This document shows, piece after piece, positions 28,178 through 37,887 of a stretch of 64,000 bases of DNA. Position 1 is the stretch's first letter, and every line of letters starts with the position of its first letter. The translations under genes and the position numbers were made by a program. Source of the stretch: Microbacterium protaetiae (GTDB lineage: Bacteria > Actinomycetota > Actinomycetes > Actinomycetales > Microbacteriaceae); contig NZ_CP035494.1 of assembly GCF_004135285.1 (NCBI RefSeq), positions 496,001 to 560,000 of the forward strand. Direction: 5' to 3'. A model generated the notes under the pieces. It had not been told where the DNA came from. It saw only the letters and a program-made list of their open reading frames with translations, and did not search any database.

Positions 28178-28712
28178 GCGCGAGTTGCCCCCCGGTTGCC
28201 CGAGTTGTCCCCGGGTTGCCCGACTTGTCCCCCGGTTACCCGATTTGCCCCCGGGTTGCCCGAGTTGTCCCCGGGTTGCCCGAGTTGCCCCCGGGTTGCC
28301 CGAGTTGTCCCTCGGTTGCCCGAGTTGTCCTCGGGTTGCCCGAGTTGTCCCCCGGTTGCCCGAGTTGTCCCCCGGTTGCCCGAGCTGTCCCCCGGGTTGC
28401 CCGAGTTGTCCTCGGGTTGCCCGAGCTGTCCTCGGGTTGCCCGAGCTGTCCCCCGGTTGCCCGAGCTGTCCCCCGGTTGCCCGAGCTGTCCCCCGGTTAC
28501 CCGAGTTGTCCCTCGGTTGCCCGAGTTGTCCTCGGGTTGCCCGAGTTGTCCCCCGGTTGCCCGAGTTGCCCCCGGGTTGCCCGAGCTGTCCCCCGGTTAC
28601 CCGAGCTGTCCCCCTGGCCCGAGGACAGGTCGCGCAACACCAGGACAGCTCGCGCAACAAGTGGACAAGTCGCGCAACCCCAGGACAAGTCGCGCAACAA
28701 CGGGGCAACTCG
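28178..28712. repeat. Tandem array of ~20-bp units (GTTGCCCGAGTTGTCCCCGG) with inverted tail
   Basis: About twenty degenerate copies of a 20-21-bp unit run in one orientation to about 28615. Then come five units of the form GGACAAGTCGCGCAAC, close to the reverse complement of the first set. The array can therefore fold back on itself. It fills the gap between converging genes (L,D-transpeptidase and icd). There are no spacers, so it is not a CRISPR. A sister array sits at 35618-35815. A purine-rich GAGAGACAGAGAGA stretch follows before the icd terminator. Confidence 0.92.
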
Positions 28713-31663: not shown

Positions 31664-31698
31664 AGGTGAGGGATGCCGCACCGCGGCATCCCTCACCT
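31664..31698. terminator. Bidirectional terminator between GNAT gene and exporter operon
   Basis: A perfect 16-bp stem (AGGTGAGGGATGCCGC / GCGGCATCCCTCACCT) with an ACC triloop. Its last base pair touches the stop codon of the exporter gene. A smaller GGATGCCGC/GCGGCATCC hairpin lies just upstream at 31631-31651. It is ideally placed to end both converging transcripts. Confidence 0.8.
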
Positions 31699-33506
31699 CA
31701 CACCAGCGACTCGCGCCAAGCCGCGTGCAACTGCGCGAACTTGCCGGTACCGGCGATGAGTGCGTCGGGGGCATCGTCCTCGATGATGCGGCCGTGCTCC
31801 ATGACCAGCACGCGGTCGGCGATCGCGACCGTCGACAGCCGGTGCGCGATGATGATCGCCGTGCGGTCGGCCAGCAGAGTCTGCAGCGCCTCTTGCACCT
31901 GACGCTCGCTGGGCATGTCGAGCGAGGCCGTCGCCTCGTCGAGGATCAGCACCGCCGGGTTGGCCAAGAACGCGCGGGCGAACGAGATCAGCTGCCGCTG
32001 GCCGGCTGAGACGCGACCGCCGCGCTTGTTCACGTCGGTGTCGTACCCGTCGGGAAGGCTCTCGATGAAGACGTCCGCCCCCACTGCCCGCGCCGCCGCG
32101 CGGATCTCGTCGAGCGTCGCGTCGGGCTTGCCGAGCGCAATGTTGTCGGCGACCGTGCCGCTGAAAAGATAGGCCTCCTGCGTGACCATCACTATCGCGC
32201 GGCGCAGGTCCTTCGGGTGCAGGTCGCGCAGATCCACGCCGTCCAGGCGCACCGAGCCATCGGTCGGGTCATAGAACCGCGACACGAGCTTGGCCAGCGT
32301 CGACTTGCCGGCACCGGTGGTTCCCACCAGCGCGATCGTCTGACCCGCGGGGATGTCGAGCGAGAAGTCGGGCAGAATGACCTTGCCGGCACCGTAGGCG
32401 AACTCGACATCGTCGAACGCGAGGTGACCACGGGCCTCCCACAGGTCGATCGGCTTGACCGGATCGGGAACGCTGGGCTCCTCCTCGAGGACACCCGACA
32501 CCTTCTCGAGCGCGGCGGTCGCCGACTGGTACGAGTTCAGGAACATCGCGACCTCTTGCAGGGGGCTGAAGAAGTTGCGGATGTACATCACTGCCGCCAG
32601 CAGCGAACCGATGAGCAGCGTGCCGTCGATCACTCGGAAGGCGCCCCACAGCAGCACGACCGCCATGGTGATGTTCGCCAGCAGGATCAGCCCCGGCTCG
32701 AAGATGCCGAACAGGTTCACCAGACGCAGGTTCACCCGGCGGTACTCCGACGAGATCTCGCCGAACTCCGCGTCGTTCCGGCGCTCCTTGCGGAACGCCT
32801 TGACAGCGCGAATGCCCGTCATGGTCTCGACGAACTGCACGATCAGCCGTGCCGAGACCACGCGCGATGCGCGGAATCCCTTCTGCGACTGCCCGTAGAA
32901 CCAGCGCATGAGGAACGCAAGCGGCACGCCCATGACGATGATGACAGCCCCACTGCGCCAGTCGAGTAGGAACAGCGAGATGAGCGTGAAGACGCCGAAC
33001 AGCACCCCCGAGACGAGCTGGGTTAGTCCGCCGTCGAGCAACTCGCGGATGGCCTCGAGGTCGCTCGTCTGCCGCGAGATGATGCGGCCTGAGGTGTACG
33101 TCTCGTGGAACTCCAGGCTCAGCCGCTGGGTGTGCCGGAAGATCCGGGTGCGCAGGTCGAGCAGGATCGTCTGCGTGAGCTTGGCCGACAGCACGACGAA
33201 CCAGCCCATCAGCAGCGCCCCGAGAACGCCGACGACGATATAGGCGATGGTGATGCCGAACGCCGGCATCCAATCGGCTGCCAACGCGCGCGGCAGCGCC
33301 GTGTTGATCCCGTACGCGATCAGCGTGGGGCCGATCACCTGGAACGCGGTTGAGACGACGACCACCACACCGCAGAGCACGACGAGCCAGCGCATCGGCG
33401 ACAGAAGCGAGCCCAGCAGGCGCAGCGAGCGCTGCCGGATCGCGCGACTCTCGGACTTCGTGTAGTCGTTGCGGTCTTCACCGCGGGTTCCGACGACCGT
33501 ACTCAC
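31698..33506 (-). CDS. ABC exporter half-transporter, subunit B (catalytic Walker B, variant signature)
   Basis: A 602-residue type IV exporter: six membrane helices (about 35-330) fused to an ATPase. Walker A is GTTGAGKST, Walker [10 protein letters not shown] with the catalytic Glu, and the H-loop is AHRLST. The signature is VSAGQ instead of LSGGQ. Its partner has the opposite pattern, so the pair makes a heterodimer with one working and one degenerate ATP site, as in BmrCD and TM287/288. It begins at a GTG overlapping the partner's stop codon (GTGA). The cargo is unknown; drugs or lipids are typical. Expression is probably governed by the attenuator upstream of subunit A. Confidence 0.93.
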
Positions 33507-35317
33507 AGGTTCACCTCCGTTTCTCGCACGTGCTGATCCTCGACCTCGAGGCTCGAGATCACGTAGCGGTAATGCTCACTCGTGTGCAGCAGTTCGGCAT
33601 GGGTGCCCACGGCGCTGATCCTTCCGTTTTCGAGCAGCGCCACCCGGTCGGCCAATGCGACCGTCGAGGAGCGGTGCGCAACGATCAGGGCTGTGGTGCT
33701 GGCCAGCACGCGCCGCAATGCCGCCTCGACGAGCGCCTCGGTGTCGACATCCAATGCCGACAGCGGATCGTCGAGCACCATCACCGTCGGTGCCGCCGCG
33801 ACCGCACGCGCCAACGCGAGGCGCTGGCGCTGCCCGCCCGACAGGCTCAGGCCCTCTTCACCCACTGTCGTGTCGACGCCGTCCGGCAGTTCGTAGGCAA
33901 ACTGCGCCTGCGCGGTCTGCAGCGCCTCGTCGAGAACCGCCTGCGCTTCGGGGCTGTGGATGTCGAGGTCGTCGCGTCCGAGCAGAACGTTCTCACGCAC
34001 CGACGCCGAGAACAACGTGGCATCTTCGAACGCCATCGCAATGTGCCGCCGCAGCTCGCCCAGGCTCAGCTCCCGCACGTCGACGCCGTCGAGTTCGAGG
34101 GCTCCGCCGGTCACGTCGTACAGGCGGCCCGGAAGGGTGGTCAACGTCGTCTTGCCCGATCCGGTCAGCCCGACCAGCGCCATGGTCTCACCGGGGCGCA
34201 GCGCGAGGTCGATGCCGTCGAGCAGGTCGGCTTCGTCTGCGCGCGAGTCGGGGTAGCGGAAGTGCACGCCGCGGAAGATGAGTTCGCCGCGAGGCTCGGT
34301 GATCGTGGCCGGTTCGGCTGGATCGGTGATGCTGTTCTGCTCGGCGAACACCTCGAAGACACGGTCGGTCGCGGTGCGGGTGTCCATCAGGAATGAGAAG
34401 AGAAAGCCGAGCGACTCGAGCGGCCAGCGCAGGGCGGTCGCCATCGCGAAGAACGCGAACAGCTCGCCGACGGTCAACTGGCCGAGACTGGCCAGCCAGA
34501 TTCCCAGCAGCAGACATACGCCGAAGGCGAGCATCGGCACGGAGTCGAGCCAGAACCAGAGCAGCCCGACCTCGTGCGCCTTGCGCATCTCGGTTCCGCG
34601 CAGTGTGTCTGCCTGCCGCGTGAACTTCTGCAACGCATGCTTGCCGCGCCCGAACGCCTTGAGCACGCGGATGCCGTGCACGCTCTCCTCCACCGAGGTG
34701 GCCAGATCACCGGCCTGATCCTGACTCTGCCGCGTGAGAGCGCCGTAGCGCTGCTCAAAGCGGTAGCCGAAGAACCACAGCGGAATCGAGAGCACGATCA
34801 GCGACGTTCCCAGCGCCCAGTGCCAGCGGAACAGCAGCACCGTGCCGATGATGATCGTGAGCACATTGACGATCAGCATGATCAGGCCGAATGCTATCCA
34901 GCGGCGCACGAGGCTGATGTCCTGCATCATCCGGCTGAGCAGCTGCCCGGACTGCCACCGGTCGTGAAAGGCGACCGGCAGCCGTTGCAGCCGCTCGTAG
35001 AAGTCCTGGCGAATGCGGTACTCGACCTTGGTCGCCGGGCCGAGCACGAAGGCACGGCGCAGGAACACGAACACGGCCTCAAGCACGCCGAGAACCAGAA
35101 CGCCCAGGCAGACCCAGACGATCAGCGGCAGGTTCTTGTCGGCGATGGGCCCGTCGACGGCTCCCTGCAGCACCAGAGGGATGATCAGCGTCATCAGCGC
35201 GCCGGCGAGTGCCGTGAAAAGGCCTCCGATCAGGCGCGGCAGCACCGGTTTGACGAAGGGGATGAGCCGCGCGAGCGCGCGCGGCGTGGACAGTCGTTGC
35301 GAAGACGAAGAACTCAT
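33503..35317 (-). CDS. ABC exporter half-transporter, subunit A (degenerate Walker B)
   Basis: A 604-residue partner of the downstream exporter gene, with six helices (about 25-320) and an ATPase. Walker A is GLTGSGKTT and the signature a canonical [14 protein letters not shown], but Walker B reads [12 protein letters not shown]: Asp replaces the catalytic Glu. This is the standard mark of the inactive site in heterodimeric exporters. Its Walker motifs pair with the VSAGQ signature of subunit B (degenerate site), while its LSGGQ pairs with the intact Walker motifs of B. It is preceded by a 132-nt spacer with a terminator-like hairpin and, before that, a 24-codon leader ORF. Confidence 0.94.
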
Positions 35318-35339
35318 GATCCTTGCAGGGAGAAGGTGG

Positions 35340-35374
35340 GCGGAAAAAGACAGATGTCACCCGCGGCGGGCGAC
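35340..35374 (-). terminator. Intrinsic terminator in the exporter leader (attenuator)
   Basis: On the minus-strand RNA: 5-prime arm GUCGCCC (35374-35368), loop GCCGC, 3-prime arm GGGUGAC (35362-35356), then AUCUGUCUUUUUCC. One pair is G-U and so forms only in this orientation, as expected if the minus-strand RNA is the functional one. It lies between the leader peptide stop (35450) and the exporter start (35317). Bases 35362-35370 are also exactly complementary to bases 35469-35477 inside the leader ORF, which would form a competing antiterminator. Confidence 0.7.
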
Positions 35375-35449
35375 GCAGAAGCGGAGGGAAACGGGCGCCG
35401 AAGAGGCGAAACGTGTGGCGACGAACCGGATGACGGCGGTTGCGGCAGC

Positions 35450-35524
35450 CTATCCCTCGACGATGATCCCCGCCGCGAGCGGACGGAAGACGACCGGCTT
35501 GACGTCGATGACGGCCTGGTACAT
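35450..35524 (-). CDS. 24-residue leader peptide upstream of the ABC exporter
   Basis: Encodes MYQAVIDVKPVVFRPLAAGI followed by IVEG and a TAG stop. A near-perfect ribosome site GAGGAGGAAGCC lies directly before the ATG, stronger than those of most genes here. A promoter-like pair (TTGCAC, 18 bp, TATGCT) lies 58-87 bp upstream. The codons for L16-A17-A18-G19 contain CGCGGCGGG, the exact complement of the terminator arm and loop 100 nt further on. Taken together this looks like a translated attenuator leader whose ribosome occupancy controls read-through into the exporter genes. I do not recognise the peptide. An independent small protein is the alternative. Confidence 0.75.
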   Translation of the reverse strand: MYQAVIDVKPVVFRPLAAGIIVEG

Positions 35525-35581
35525 GGCTTCCTCCTCGGATCGCGGAACAGGGCTGCTGCGTCCAAGACGCGACAGCCGACC

Positions 35582-35611
35582 AGCATATGCCTGAACGTTG
35601 CCTGAGTGCAA
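35582..35611 (-). promoter_or_regulatory. Predicted promoter of the leader-exporter operon
   Basis: On the minus strand: -35 TTGCAC (35611-35606), an 18-bp spacer, -10 TATGCT (35587-35582). The transcript would start near 35575, giving about 50 nt of leader before the ribosome site of the 24-codon ORF. This is the best match to a sigma-70 consensus that I found in the window. Confidence 0.65.
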
Positions 35612-35617
35612 CACCGC

Positions 35618-35815
35618 CGCTCGCCGAGTTGTCCCCGCGTTGCGCGACCTGACCCCGCGTTGCCCGAGTTGTCCCGGGGTTGCCCGAGTTGCCCCCGCGT
35701 TGCCCGAGTTGCCCCGGGACAAGTCGCGCAACCCGAGGACAACTCGCGGCACAACAAGGACAAGTCGCGCAACCCGAGGACAACTCGCGGCACAAGGGGA
35801 CAACTCGCGGCTAAT
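35618..35815. repeat. Second GTTGCCCGAGTTGTCC array with head-to-head arms
   Basis: Five or six units of the type GTTGCCCGAGTTGTCCCCGC run to about 35713. Then six units in the opposite sense (GGACAAGTCGCGCAACCCGA and GGACAACTCGCGGC types) run to the end of the ogt gene. It is the same family as 28178-28712 and shares the change of orientation in the middle. It ends within the last codons of ogt and lies just upstream of the exporter promoter. Confidence 0.9.
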
Positions 35816-36311
35816 GGGGGGCGGCGGCGGCCTCGCGTGCGAGCAGCTGGCGCTTGACGTCCAGGCCCCAGGCGAAGCCGCCCAGCGACCCGTCGCCGCG
35901 CAGCACGCGATGGCACGGCACGAACAGTGCCGGCGCATTGCGCGCGCAGATGGATGCCGCTGCCCGCACCGCGGCCGGATGCCCCACAGCGGCCGCGAGC
36001 TCGGTGTACGAGAGCGGGCGGCCCGGCGAGATCCGGCGCAGCGCCGCCCAGCCGTCACGCTGCATCGCCGTTCCGTGCTGCCGTACGGGCACCGCGTCGA
36101 TCGCGGAGAGGTCTCCGACGTAGTACGCCCGGACAGCGGCTGCGGCATCCGTCGCACCCGGCACGATATCGCGAGGTCGCAGGCTCACATGGATGCGCGC
36201 GACGACCGCGTCCGCGTTGCTCGTCCAGCCCGACGCGAGCACGTTCCCGGCGTCGCTGACGATCGTGAACGGGCCGTCGGGGGTCTCGAGGGTCTCGATG
36301 AGGGCAGTCAT
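35811..36311 (-). CDS. ogt: Methylated-DNA--protein-cysteine methyltransferase
   Basis: Removes methyl groups from O6-methylguanine in a suicidal transfer to its own cysteine. The 166-residue protein holds the active site [11 protein letters not shown] and the recognition-helix region [22 protein letters not shown], with ARNAP before the active site as in the family. AGGAGAACC precedes this ATG; an ATG seven codons upstream overlapping the alkA stop is the alternative. It follows the ada-alkA fusion gene by 13 bp in the same operon, a repair pair for alkylation damage. Its last codons run into the repeat array. Confidence 0.95.
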
Positions 36312-36324
36312 GGTTCTCCTGTGG

Positions 36325-37887
36325 TCACTCATTCAGTCTGGGCGCGGACACGCGCGGCCTCGCCCCGCGTGTTTCCGCAGGCGGCTCCGCATCGCCGGCG
36401 CCCGCAGACTGAGTTGTTGCACGCGCCTCGGGCGAGCCGAGAGGGGTGGATGCCGCGCGCCAGAAGTGCGCGGTCAGGTAACTGCGCCACGGCGCGGCGC
36501 GCTCGGCCCACGCCGCCAGCGCCTTCGCTTCACCGGGCAGCCCGAGGCGAGCGGCACCGGCGCGGGCGGCGACGTCGCCGGGCAGGAAAACATCGGGATC
36601 GCCGGTGATCCGCATCCGCACATAGTCGGCGGTCCACGGCCCGATGCCGGGCATCGCCAGCAACGCAGCGCGCTGGGCGACGGGGTCGTCTCCGGCGCCG
36701 AGCTGAAGCGATCCGTCGGCCAGCGCCGCGGCCGCACCGGTGATCGCGCGGATGCGCGCGCCCGGCCCGCGCAGCACTTCCGCACCCCGCTCTGCGATCG
36801 CCGCCATGGTCGGGAACAACAGTGCCCCGCCGGGCAGGCGCTCCCCCAGCGCGTGCGTCAGCCGGGTCAGTGCGGTGCGGGCCGCGGCCACCGAGATCTG
36901 CTGGCCGATCATCGCGCGGATGAGCATCTCACCCGCATCGACCGCCCCGGGCACGCGCATCCCCGGCACCGCTCCGACGGCGGGCGCGAGTTCGAGATGT
37001 CGCGCAAGAGCGCCGTCGATGCCGACAGGGTCGGCGTCGAGGTCGAACAGGCGCCGTGCTCGGGCGATCAGCGCCGGCAGATCGGCGAGGTGGGCGAGCC
37101 GGGCATCCAAGCGCAGCGCGTCGCCGTCGGCGTGGATGCGCATCCACCCGGGCCCGCGCGGCAGGGCGAGCGTGCGGCTGTAGGAGGTCTCGGATGCCTC
37201 TTCGACGCCGTCGACGGCTCGCGCGCGCATCCAGGCGAACAGTCCGTCGAGATCGATCGGTGCGCGATGCGCGAGCACCAGCCGCACCCGGCCTGCCTCA
37301 CCCGTCGAGGGCAGCAGGTGCCGGCGCGCACGCAGCTGCAGCGGCGGCATCCCGAACACTTCCCGCACGGTGTCGTTGAATTGGCGGATGCTGGCGAAGC
37401 CGGCCGAGAACGCGACATCGGCCGCCGTCAGATCGGTGCCCACCAGCAGCATGCGCGCCGTGTGCGCACGATGCGCGCGGGCGAGGGCGAGGGGGCCGGC
37501 GCCGAGTTCTGCGGTCAGGATGCGGCCGAGCTGGCGGGGCGAATACCCGAGGCGCCGGGCAAGGCCGGGCACGCCCTCGCGCTCGACGACGCCGTCTTGA
37601 ATCAGGCGCATAGCTCGGCCTGCGGCATCCGTTCGCAGATTCCATTCGGGCGAGCCCGGCGCCGCATCGGGCAGGCAGCGTTTGCAGGCGCGGTAACCGG
37701 CCTCGTGCGCGGCAGCCGCCGTCGGGAAGAACGTCACATTCGCGGGCTTCGGCGTGCGCGCCGGGCAGCTCGGGCGGCAGTAGATGCCGGTCGAGCGCAC
37801 CGCCGTGATGAACTGCCCGTCGAAGCGCGCGTCGCGCGTGTCGATGGCACGGTAGCGCTCGTCGAAGGTCATCGCCGTCACGCTCAT
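36325..37887 (-). CDS. alkA: Ada-type regulator fused to DNA-3-methyladenine glycosylase II (AdaA-AlkA)
   Basis: A 520-residue bifunctional protein. The N-terminal Ada zinc domain has its four Cys ([10 protein letters not shown] and [10 protein letters not shown]); the first is the methyl-phosphotriester acceptor. An AraC-type HTH pair follows (about 100-190, with [20 protein letters not shown]). An AlkA N-domain (about 200-290) and the HhH-GPD glycosylase come next, with [18 protein letters not shown] and the catalytic Asp in FLPGD. It excises 3-alkylpurines and probably activates the operon when methylated. The layout is usual for actinobacteria. The C-terminal 40 residues are Pro/Ala/Arg-rich and unlike the family. 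Confidence 0.94.

Follow-up and report, generated by a model that had tools for sequence, protein, structure and literature searches.

A leader open reading frame ahead of a heterodimeric ABC exporter operon in Microbacterium, a probable conditional-termination device with a changeable termination step

Introduction

What controls the heterodimeric ABC exporter operon carried by a stretch of Microbacterium protaetiae DNA, and does that control belong to this strain or to its family? The window, i.e., the whole stretch analysed (64,000 nucleotides, or 64 kb, of contig NZ_CP035494.1), comes from a host genome of 3.79 Mb in a single contig, and on its minus strand a short leader open reading frame (ORF) precedes the exporter genes. 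A first-pass annotation had read this arrangement as ribosome-mediated attenuation, in which part of the leader pairs with a terminator hairpin, and the promoter hexamers, the leader with its ribosome site, the hairpin, its UCUUUUU tail and the exporter ATG that it described were all recovered on the minus strand at the places it gave. By comparing the upstream regions of orthologous exporters we arrive at a broader answer: the locus probably houses a leader-ORF-dependent device for conditional premature termination, which would sense slowed translation and whose termination step, by hairpin or by Rho, would evolve fast. On balance we also favor the view that a leader ORF, or upstream ORF (uORF), belongs to the 5' control region of this heterodimeric exporter operon in all sampled genera of the family.

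A leader ORF kept ahead of the exporter

35450..35524, minus strand: leader ORF of 24 codons, ATG at 35524 to TAG at 35450, MYQAVIDVKPVVFRPLAAGIIVEG
35529..35536, minus strand: leader ribosome-binding site GAGGAGGA, GGAGG-type, conserved

An orthologous exporter was found at E<=1e-200 in 358 of the 366 genomes of the genus Microbacterium, and of the 200 upstream regions collected we kept the 187 that were distinct and N-free. The leader was sought by a script that demanded a promoter motif, TANNNT...GGCT, and then an ORF of 16-40 amino acids (aa) preceded by a ribosome site. Such an ORF, with the same promoter motif, stands before the orthologous exporter in 166 of the 187 loci (16-40 aa, median 24), and thus the recurrence of the leader in relatives, on which the first-pass annotation had itself staked its model, is borne out. 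In 163 of the 166 a GGAGG precedes the leader ATG by at most 14 nt, and in 163 the leader starts 25-75 nt from the promoter motif. When an ATG was demanded, the finder succeeded in 165 of the 166 real loci versus 0.6% of 3320 shuffled 5' regions, which is to be read as a contrast and not as a probability, because the loci are related and were picked by a like finder.

The 21 loci without a leader by script are of several kinds. Eleven of them (L011, L034, L080, L106, L107, L108, L121, L137, L173, L187, L191) retain the promoter motif and transcript start and have a short 5' region; four were missed or probably missed, with a leader-like ORF overlooked by the rule in L091, L094 and (by eye) L077, and probably in L093; another four (L081-L084) contain short ORFs, lack a matching promoter motif and were counted as leaderless; and L010 and L062 are situated at the edge of a contig. 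In the 11 leaderless, motif-keeping loci the distance from motif to exporter ATG is 47-115 nt, versus 174-344 nt in leadered loci, and because of this shortening we consider that leader and post-leader region mostly go together, a joint presence or absence that is, for the most part, what the sequences of a single device would be expected to show. Eight more loci, L223-L230, were kept outside the 187: the finder reports a leader in five, L226 has one by eye, and none was found in L229 and L230.

By their peptides the leaders were sorted into groups A (n = 60), B (n = 47), C (n = 10), D (n = 24), E (n = 6) and others (n = 19), with crude rules that placed some MFTT/MHTN peptides in A and one MFTI peptide in B. 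Group A peptides begin MYQAVIDVKPVVF... or MYQAAIAAKTVFVLR..., and the other named groups are represented by MTTIATARIAALGSTPARPLS (B), MPTITTASSISAV... (C), MDQIDAPVAPAAA... (D) and MNTIAVAVTPVAA... (E). Clade-A leaders start with MYQA or MSQA in 42 of 60 cases, end in EG or QG in 36 of 60, and vary in length (21-33 aa) by whole codons, the frame being retained. The ratio of nonsynonymous to synonymous change (N/S) over near pairs, which are not independent, is 0.55 in A, 1.01 in B, 0.96 in C and 0.90 in D, with 1.24 in E (two usable pairs) and 1.50 in the others (three usable pairs). Given the retained frame in clade A and ratios around 1 in B, C and D, it seems that translation of the leader matters and its peptide sequence less so. 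An ORF whose peptides diverge this freely between clades, with N/S near 1 in three of them, might also be non-regulatory, either a small-protein gene in its own right or a fortuitous ORF within a conserved 5' region. We hold this to be very improbable: the ORF and its strong ribosome site are far more frequent than in shuffled sequence and are maintained across genera, and a common protein function is unlikely for such short peptides (16-40 aa), which have no sequence in common across the groups.

Beyond Microbacterium, eight of nine exporter matches from other genera of the same family were fetched (L231-L238, three genera), and all eight have a short ORF with a ribosome-site-like motif. The ten loci taken from other families within the order (L239-L248) yielded no such short ORF; the finder used had no shuffled control of its own. 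By eye, three of these ten (L242, L245 and L247, all of one family) have a 13-codon ORF before the exporter, MPSLKVRTPQTHS in L242 and L245, where its stop overlaps a possible GTG start (L247 is similar); this arrangement is possibly one of translational coupling, a design unlike that of the Microbacteriaceae leader.

Among the listed peptides no single-amino-acid codon run is shared by the leaders, as judged by eye only, and an amino-acid-sensing attenuator of the trp/his/ilv type, for which such a run was sought by eye, was set aside. The erythromycin-arrest leader peptide of ermA is SIAVVEIT, and some clade-B leaders (L056, L053, L041; e.g., MISIAVAQITVLGS) resemble it, possibly by chance.

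A predicted terminator and antiterminator in the window strain

35344..35374, minus strand: terminator-like hairpin GUCGCCCG-CCG-CGGGUGAC (35374-35356) and UCUUUUU tail (35350-35344)
35469..35477, minus strand: CGCGGCGGG, strain-specific core of the leader stretch pairing with the terminator hairpin

The terminator-like hairpin has 8 bp, including one G-U pair, a predicted energy of -12.1 kcal/mol, and AUCUGUCUUUUU behind it. The 9-nt match reported at first is real, CGCGGCGGG in the leader (35477-35469) complementing CCCGCCGCG (35370-35362) exactly, but the pairing extends further, to a leader:hairpin duplex of about 16 bp with an energy of -31.7 kcal/mol. A perfect 9-nt complement arises by chance in 1.3% of 300 shuffled leaders against the hairpin and in 4.7% against the whole post-leader region; the duplex energy is reached by none of 300 shuffled leaders and none of 59 other clade-A leaders (best -29.6). 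We then folded the RNA not occupied by a ribosome placed at a given leader codon. The predicted probability of the terminator, P, is 0.000 with the ribosome at codons 3, 5, 8 and 10, 0.32 at codon 12, 0.97-0.98 at codons 14-18 and 0.81 at codon 24, while shuffled leaders in the stalled state average 0.845 and 1.0% of 200 fall as low as the real leader. For the window sequence alone, the proposal that terminator and antiterminator exclude each other, with an early ribosome favoring the latter and a late one the former, is therefore upheld. With no ribosome at all P is 0.001, i.e., untranslated RNA would read through, because there too the antiterminator wins.

The closest relative departs from this picture. 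The exporter of L085 is 89% identical and its leader is the same over the first 19 residues; of the hairpin it retains the 3' half, and AUCUGUCU after it, an A-U pair replacing the window's G-U and the tail being AUCUGUCUGCUCUC, and its hairpin is predicted at P 0.95 with an early ribosome, its leader duplex being equalled by 33% of shuffles. Antiterminator and U-run are both absent from the close relatives L085 and L005. Over all 166 loci, the best duplex between exposed leader and post-leader region, compared with 60 shuffled leaders per locus, gave mean z values of -0.01 (A), -0.25 (B), -0.40 (C), -0.24 (D), 0.19 (E) and 0.21 (others), and reached p<=0.05 in 7 loci where about 8 are expected; the window has the lowest value of all (-3.34), L085 and L005 having +0.83 and +0.63. 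Swapping leaders between loci left a residual of -0.67 in A (standard error 0.42, a weak lean toward cognate pairing), -0.04 in B, -0.05 in C and +0.50 in D, and at least five U within 7 nt are found between leader and exporter in only 18 of the 166 loci.

As a conserved mechanism, then, the 9-nt complementarity does not hold, being at chance over the 166 loci and missing in the closest relative, and an antiterminator as a conserved principle is ruled out by the shuffles, the leader swaps and the closest relatives together. With the relatives at chance, the window most extreme and L085 without it, we regard the pairing as private to the window strain: it is a strain-specific refinement of recent origin, or else an extreme produced by chance and singled out for being conspicuous. 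Attenuation of the BmrB type, with an antiterminator of about 16 bp at work in the window strain itself, would explain why P swings from nothing to near certainty with ribosome position and why neither shuffled nor other clade-A leaders pair equally well. It would have to accommodate the loss of antiterminator and U-run in L085, L005 and the set at large, a locus that is the most extreme of 166 and was selected by eye for exactly that feature, and an antiterminator that wins even without a ribosome; we keep it as a possible but doubtful reading.

The region between leader and exporter

35328..35449, minus strand: post-leader region, C 45% and G 22%, candidate Rho-loading region by its C-over-G bias
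35408..35441, minus strand: first post-leader hairpin, AACCG-N8-CGGUU (35441-35424) with CGUUUC (35413-35408)

The C-over-G bias of the window's post-leader region is reached by 1.6% of 122-nt windows on both strands of the 64 kb, and C exceeds G after the leader in all 166 leadered loci (clade means C 45-52%, G 21-27%). A C-rich, G-poor stretch is the expected look of a Rho-loading region, although it is no proof of one. Attenuation might accordingly depend on Rho, which naked C-rich RNA behind the leader stop would load unless a ribosome held on the leader or an altered fold prevents it; the scarcity of U-runs in this set is in keeping with this, and excerpts from a paper on a published uORF system (PMC12121999) join drug sensing to Rho. 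Against it, the leaders in these genomes are also rich in C (37-47%, with G at 26-30%, as clade means), and an excess of C over G has little predictive power; nor is it easy to see how a stretch of 100 nt would be shielded by a ribosome halted early. We entertain Rho-dependent attenuation tentatively, as a possibility short of a favored one.

Clade-specific hairpins also occupy this region. In clade B a 36-nt hairpin is common to 30 of 47 loci; 99.1% of the pair cells in its 23 distinct copies are standard, a percentage inflated because copies were chosen for shape, so that the compensatory changes are the useful part. Four of its 14 pairs changed on both sides, which 1 of 500 shuffles reached, and no shuffle out of 500 reached its covariation score; further pair types are not raised (6 vs 6.9 in shuffles). 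The hairpin was excised and tested alone, RNAalifold on the clade-B alignment having been uninformative. A different element, a stem with a CAUA (or CAUU) loop followed by CGUU, is present in 37 of 60 loci in A, three of six in E and five of 19 others (45 of 85), versus 1.3%, 0% and 0.8% in the respective shuffles, and in none of the 81 loci of groups B, C and D; its stems vary in sequence among loci while pairing is kept (e.g., L009, L110, L132, L140, L149). The window's own first post-leader hairpin, which itself fails the CAUA pattern, is, to judge by position and by eye, possibly a degenerate counterpart of this element. By eye, clade C (e.g., L031) has a GGAUGC-AUC-GCAUCC hairpin whose 3' half has an alternative partner, GAUGCGAU, further downstream and close to the ribosome site of the exporter; in predicted structure this is a candidate switch of its own.

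Pairings of this kind raise the question of translation attenuation as in ermC or toiL, where RNA structure would hide the exporter ribosome site until a ribosome halted on the leader exposes it. Alternative pairings are predicted near that site in clade C, as just described, and a conserved CUUUC...GAGAG in clade B could, by eye, cover it. Yet the predicted openness of the site is alike in three ribosome states and with shuffled leaders (clade A 0.55, 0.58 and 0.59; shuffled 0.57), and clade means are at least those of the surrounding RNA, except for clade B without a ribosome (0.37 vs 0.46). We consider this explanation improbable. Masking of the exporter site as a general principle was rejected, the clade means of predicted openness showing no dependence on state over the 166 loci, with the same exception (0.37 vs 0.48 and 0.47 in the other two states).

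An Rfam scan of the window returned no match for the leader region, and only a ZTP riboswitch elsewhere; in 15 relatives scanned at E<=1, the five matches were all far under their gathering scores.

Promoter and 5'-terminal hairpin

35582..35611, minus strand: promoter, -35 TTGCAC (35611-35606), 18-nt spacer, -10 TATGCT (35587-35582)
35551..35577, minus strand: 5'-terminal hairpin, GGCUGU-C-GCGUC-UUG-GACGC-A-GCAGCC, folding z -2.3

The description of this promoter as near-consensus was too generous by the E. coli yardstick (3/6 and 4/6 bases), and a promoter scan reported none. A TTG does occur 25-50 nt upstream of the GGCTG motif in all 166 leadered loci, which is a loose test, and the -10/GGCT motif was itself a selection criterion for these loci. 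Mean folding z of the 5'-terminal hairpin is -2.73 in A (60 loci), -2.49 in C and between -0.74 and -1.64 elsewhere, and such hairpins are likewise seen in the relatives whose folds were printed. Taken together, the comparison of loci shows that the putative promoter, the predicted 5' hairpin, the ribosome site, the leader ORF, the C-over-G stretch and the exporter are kept together.

In its own genome the motif TANNNTGGNNGGCTGTCGCG has the window locus as its sole mismatch-free match. A regulon with the same promoter/5'-hairpin motif was considered and dropped: five other genomic places match, all with two mismatches, and the reversed-pattern control gives 32.

Exporter genes and surroundings

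33503..35317, minus strand: ABC exporter subunit 1, ORF with Walker B VMVLDD (degenerate) and LSGGQ intact
31698..33506, minus strand: ABC exporter subunit 2, ORF with Walker B VLILDE intact and signature SAGQR (degenerate)

Subunit 1 starts with the ATG at 35317, and the two ORFs overlap by 4 bases. Among many ABC exporters of known structure, subunit 1 matches YheI (BmrC) at E 3e-71; subunit 2 matches YheH (BmrD) at E 5.3e-83 and TM_0288 at E 5.4e-94, again among many exporters. An Asp replaces the catalytic Glu of Walker B in subunit 1 (LDD) and the signature motif is altered in subunit 2 (SAGQR), a combination which we take to be the mark of one degenerate ATP site. The pair would thus presumably fit the heterodimeric type with a single degenerate site, and overlapping ORFs, YheI/YheH matches and motifs all agree with the heterodimeric exporter first proposed downstream of the leader.

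Upstream of the leader-exporter region lies an ogt-type methyltransferase gene (35811-36332). Arrays of a 20-bp repeat, CGAGTTGTCCNNNNGTTGC, head-to-tail and inverted, occur at 35624-35815, between ogt and the leader promoter, and at 28181-28580. This repeat has 224 matches with at most one mismatch in its own genome, 135 of them exact, distributed over many clusters (reversed-pattern control, 1), and no exact match in 294 other genomes of the genus; the family is private to the window strain among the genomes tested. The ZTP riboswitch is at 780-862 on the minus strand (54 bits).

Relation to known systems

The published systems are compared here as excerpts of the cited papers portray them. 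In bmrB-bmrCD of B. subtilis, lincomycin, erythromycin and chloramphenicol raise read-through, and leader translation and the terminator are needed (PMC4191407); there as here, a leader ORF, a terminator (in the window, a terminator-like hairpin) and an antiterminator (here in the window strain only) precede a heterodimeric ABC exporter, known there to be a multidrug exporter. It differs in that bmrB is longer and has its terminator inside the leader coding region, not after the leader, and in that drug induction was shown in B. subtilis, whereas here it is proposed by analogy and the antiterminator is not conserved. The toiL-topAI-yjhQP system of E. coli (PMC12121999) has a single uORF that can sense many kinds of stall and several drug classes, with Rho acting downstream, and shares the short uORF and, presumably, the premature termination behind it; it differs in the masking of the downstream ribosome site, which predictions do not generally show here, and in the action of Rho within the gene. 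In mycobacteria, uORF attenuation for amino acids, with terminator and antiterminator, has been described for ilvB1, and ribosome stalling for the whiB7 uORF (PMC13236596), both being actinobacterial uORFs with transcription attenuation ahead of a regulated gene. The ilvB1 leader, however, has LVVI sensor codons, while the leaders compared here have no shared amino-acid run by eye, and whiB7 encodes a regulator, the regulated gene here being an exporter. The patAB exporter of Streptococcus pneumoniae is similarly an ABC exporter restrained by an intrinsic terminator in its leader (PMC4319486), in another lineage and with no leader ORF named in the abstract. Finally, a survey of attenuators found sensing structures to be diverse and fast evolving, and predicted intrinsic terminators to be at a minimum in Actinobacteria (PMC2965389). 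It is owing to the BmrB, ilvB1/whiB7 and toiL parallels, together with this survey, that we place the locus as a conditional-termination device with an evolving step.

Proposed mechanism and significance

In such a device ribosomes would start at the strong site and translate the leader of 16-40 aa. The RNA from the leader stop to the exporter (about 90-200 nt, C-rich and G-poor) would be a zone of premature termination, and the exporter would be made mainly when leader translation is disturbed, e.g., by ribosome-targeting drugs; by analogy, antibiotic control of the exporter is plausible. In the window strain the stopping step would most simply be the intrinsic terminator opposed by the leader-encoded antiterminator, while most other loci, having neither U-run nor antiterminator, would need Rho on the C-rich stretch or clade-specific hairpins.

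Several results weigh against this conditional-termination device. A terminator scan of 1.4 kb of the window finds two sites versus 1.0 (sd 1.1) in shuffles, i.e., not above chance. When the strongest hairpin of each locus was folded in the ribosome states, its mean rank among 30 shuffles was 14.4 in A, 15.7 in B, 17.4 in D and 16.6 in the others, only C (5.6, 10 loci) and E (8.0, 6 loci) leaning toward an effect of the leader; this best-hairpin rule misses the terminator of the first-pass annotation in the window, which was tested by name instead. With N/S of 0.90-1.01, the peptide sequence in B, C and D is not visibly constrained beyond its status as an ORF. In L229, moreover, where no leader ORF was found, the CAUA hairpin with its CGUU comes by eye directly after the promoter motif; from this locus the CAUA/CGUU element may act without a leader, contrary to leader and post-leader region always acting jointly. 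A sequence-agnostic, family-wide sensor of translation, in which the leader is selected for being translated and not for its peptide, termination structures are swapped between clades and the previously undescribed CAUA/CGUU motif, a covarying stem and CAUA loop with CGUU about 10 nt further on, is the effector in one large Microbacterium group, goes further than the conditional-termination device and strikes us as rather unlikely.

Our literature search, which covered few subscription journals, found no publication on this Microbacterium operon among the papers listed, and to our knowledge most of what is established on drug exporters governed by leader ORFs comes from Firmicutes. The window also carries a warning: a terminator and antiterminator that fit together elegantly in one genome may be confined to that genome. 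A conserved actinobacterial version would provide 166 natural variants and 11 related leaderless loci for comparison, in which one could try to tell the parts indispensable to a translation-stress sensor (an ORF that is translated, a zone of termination) from those open to replacement (peptide, terminator and antiterminator).

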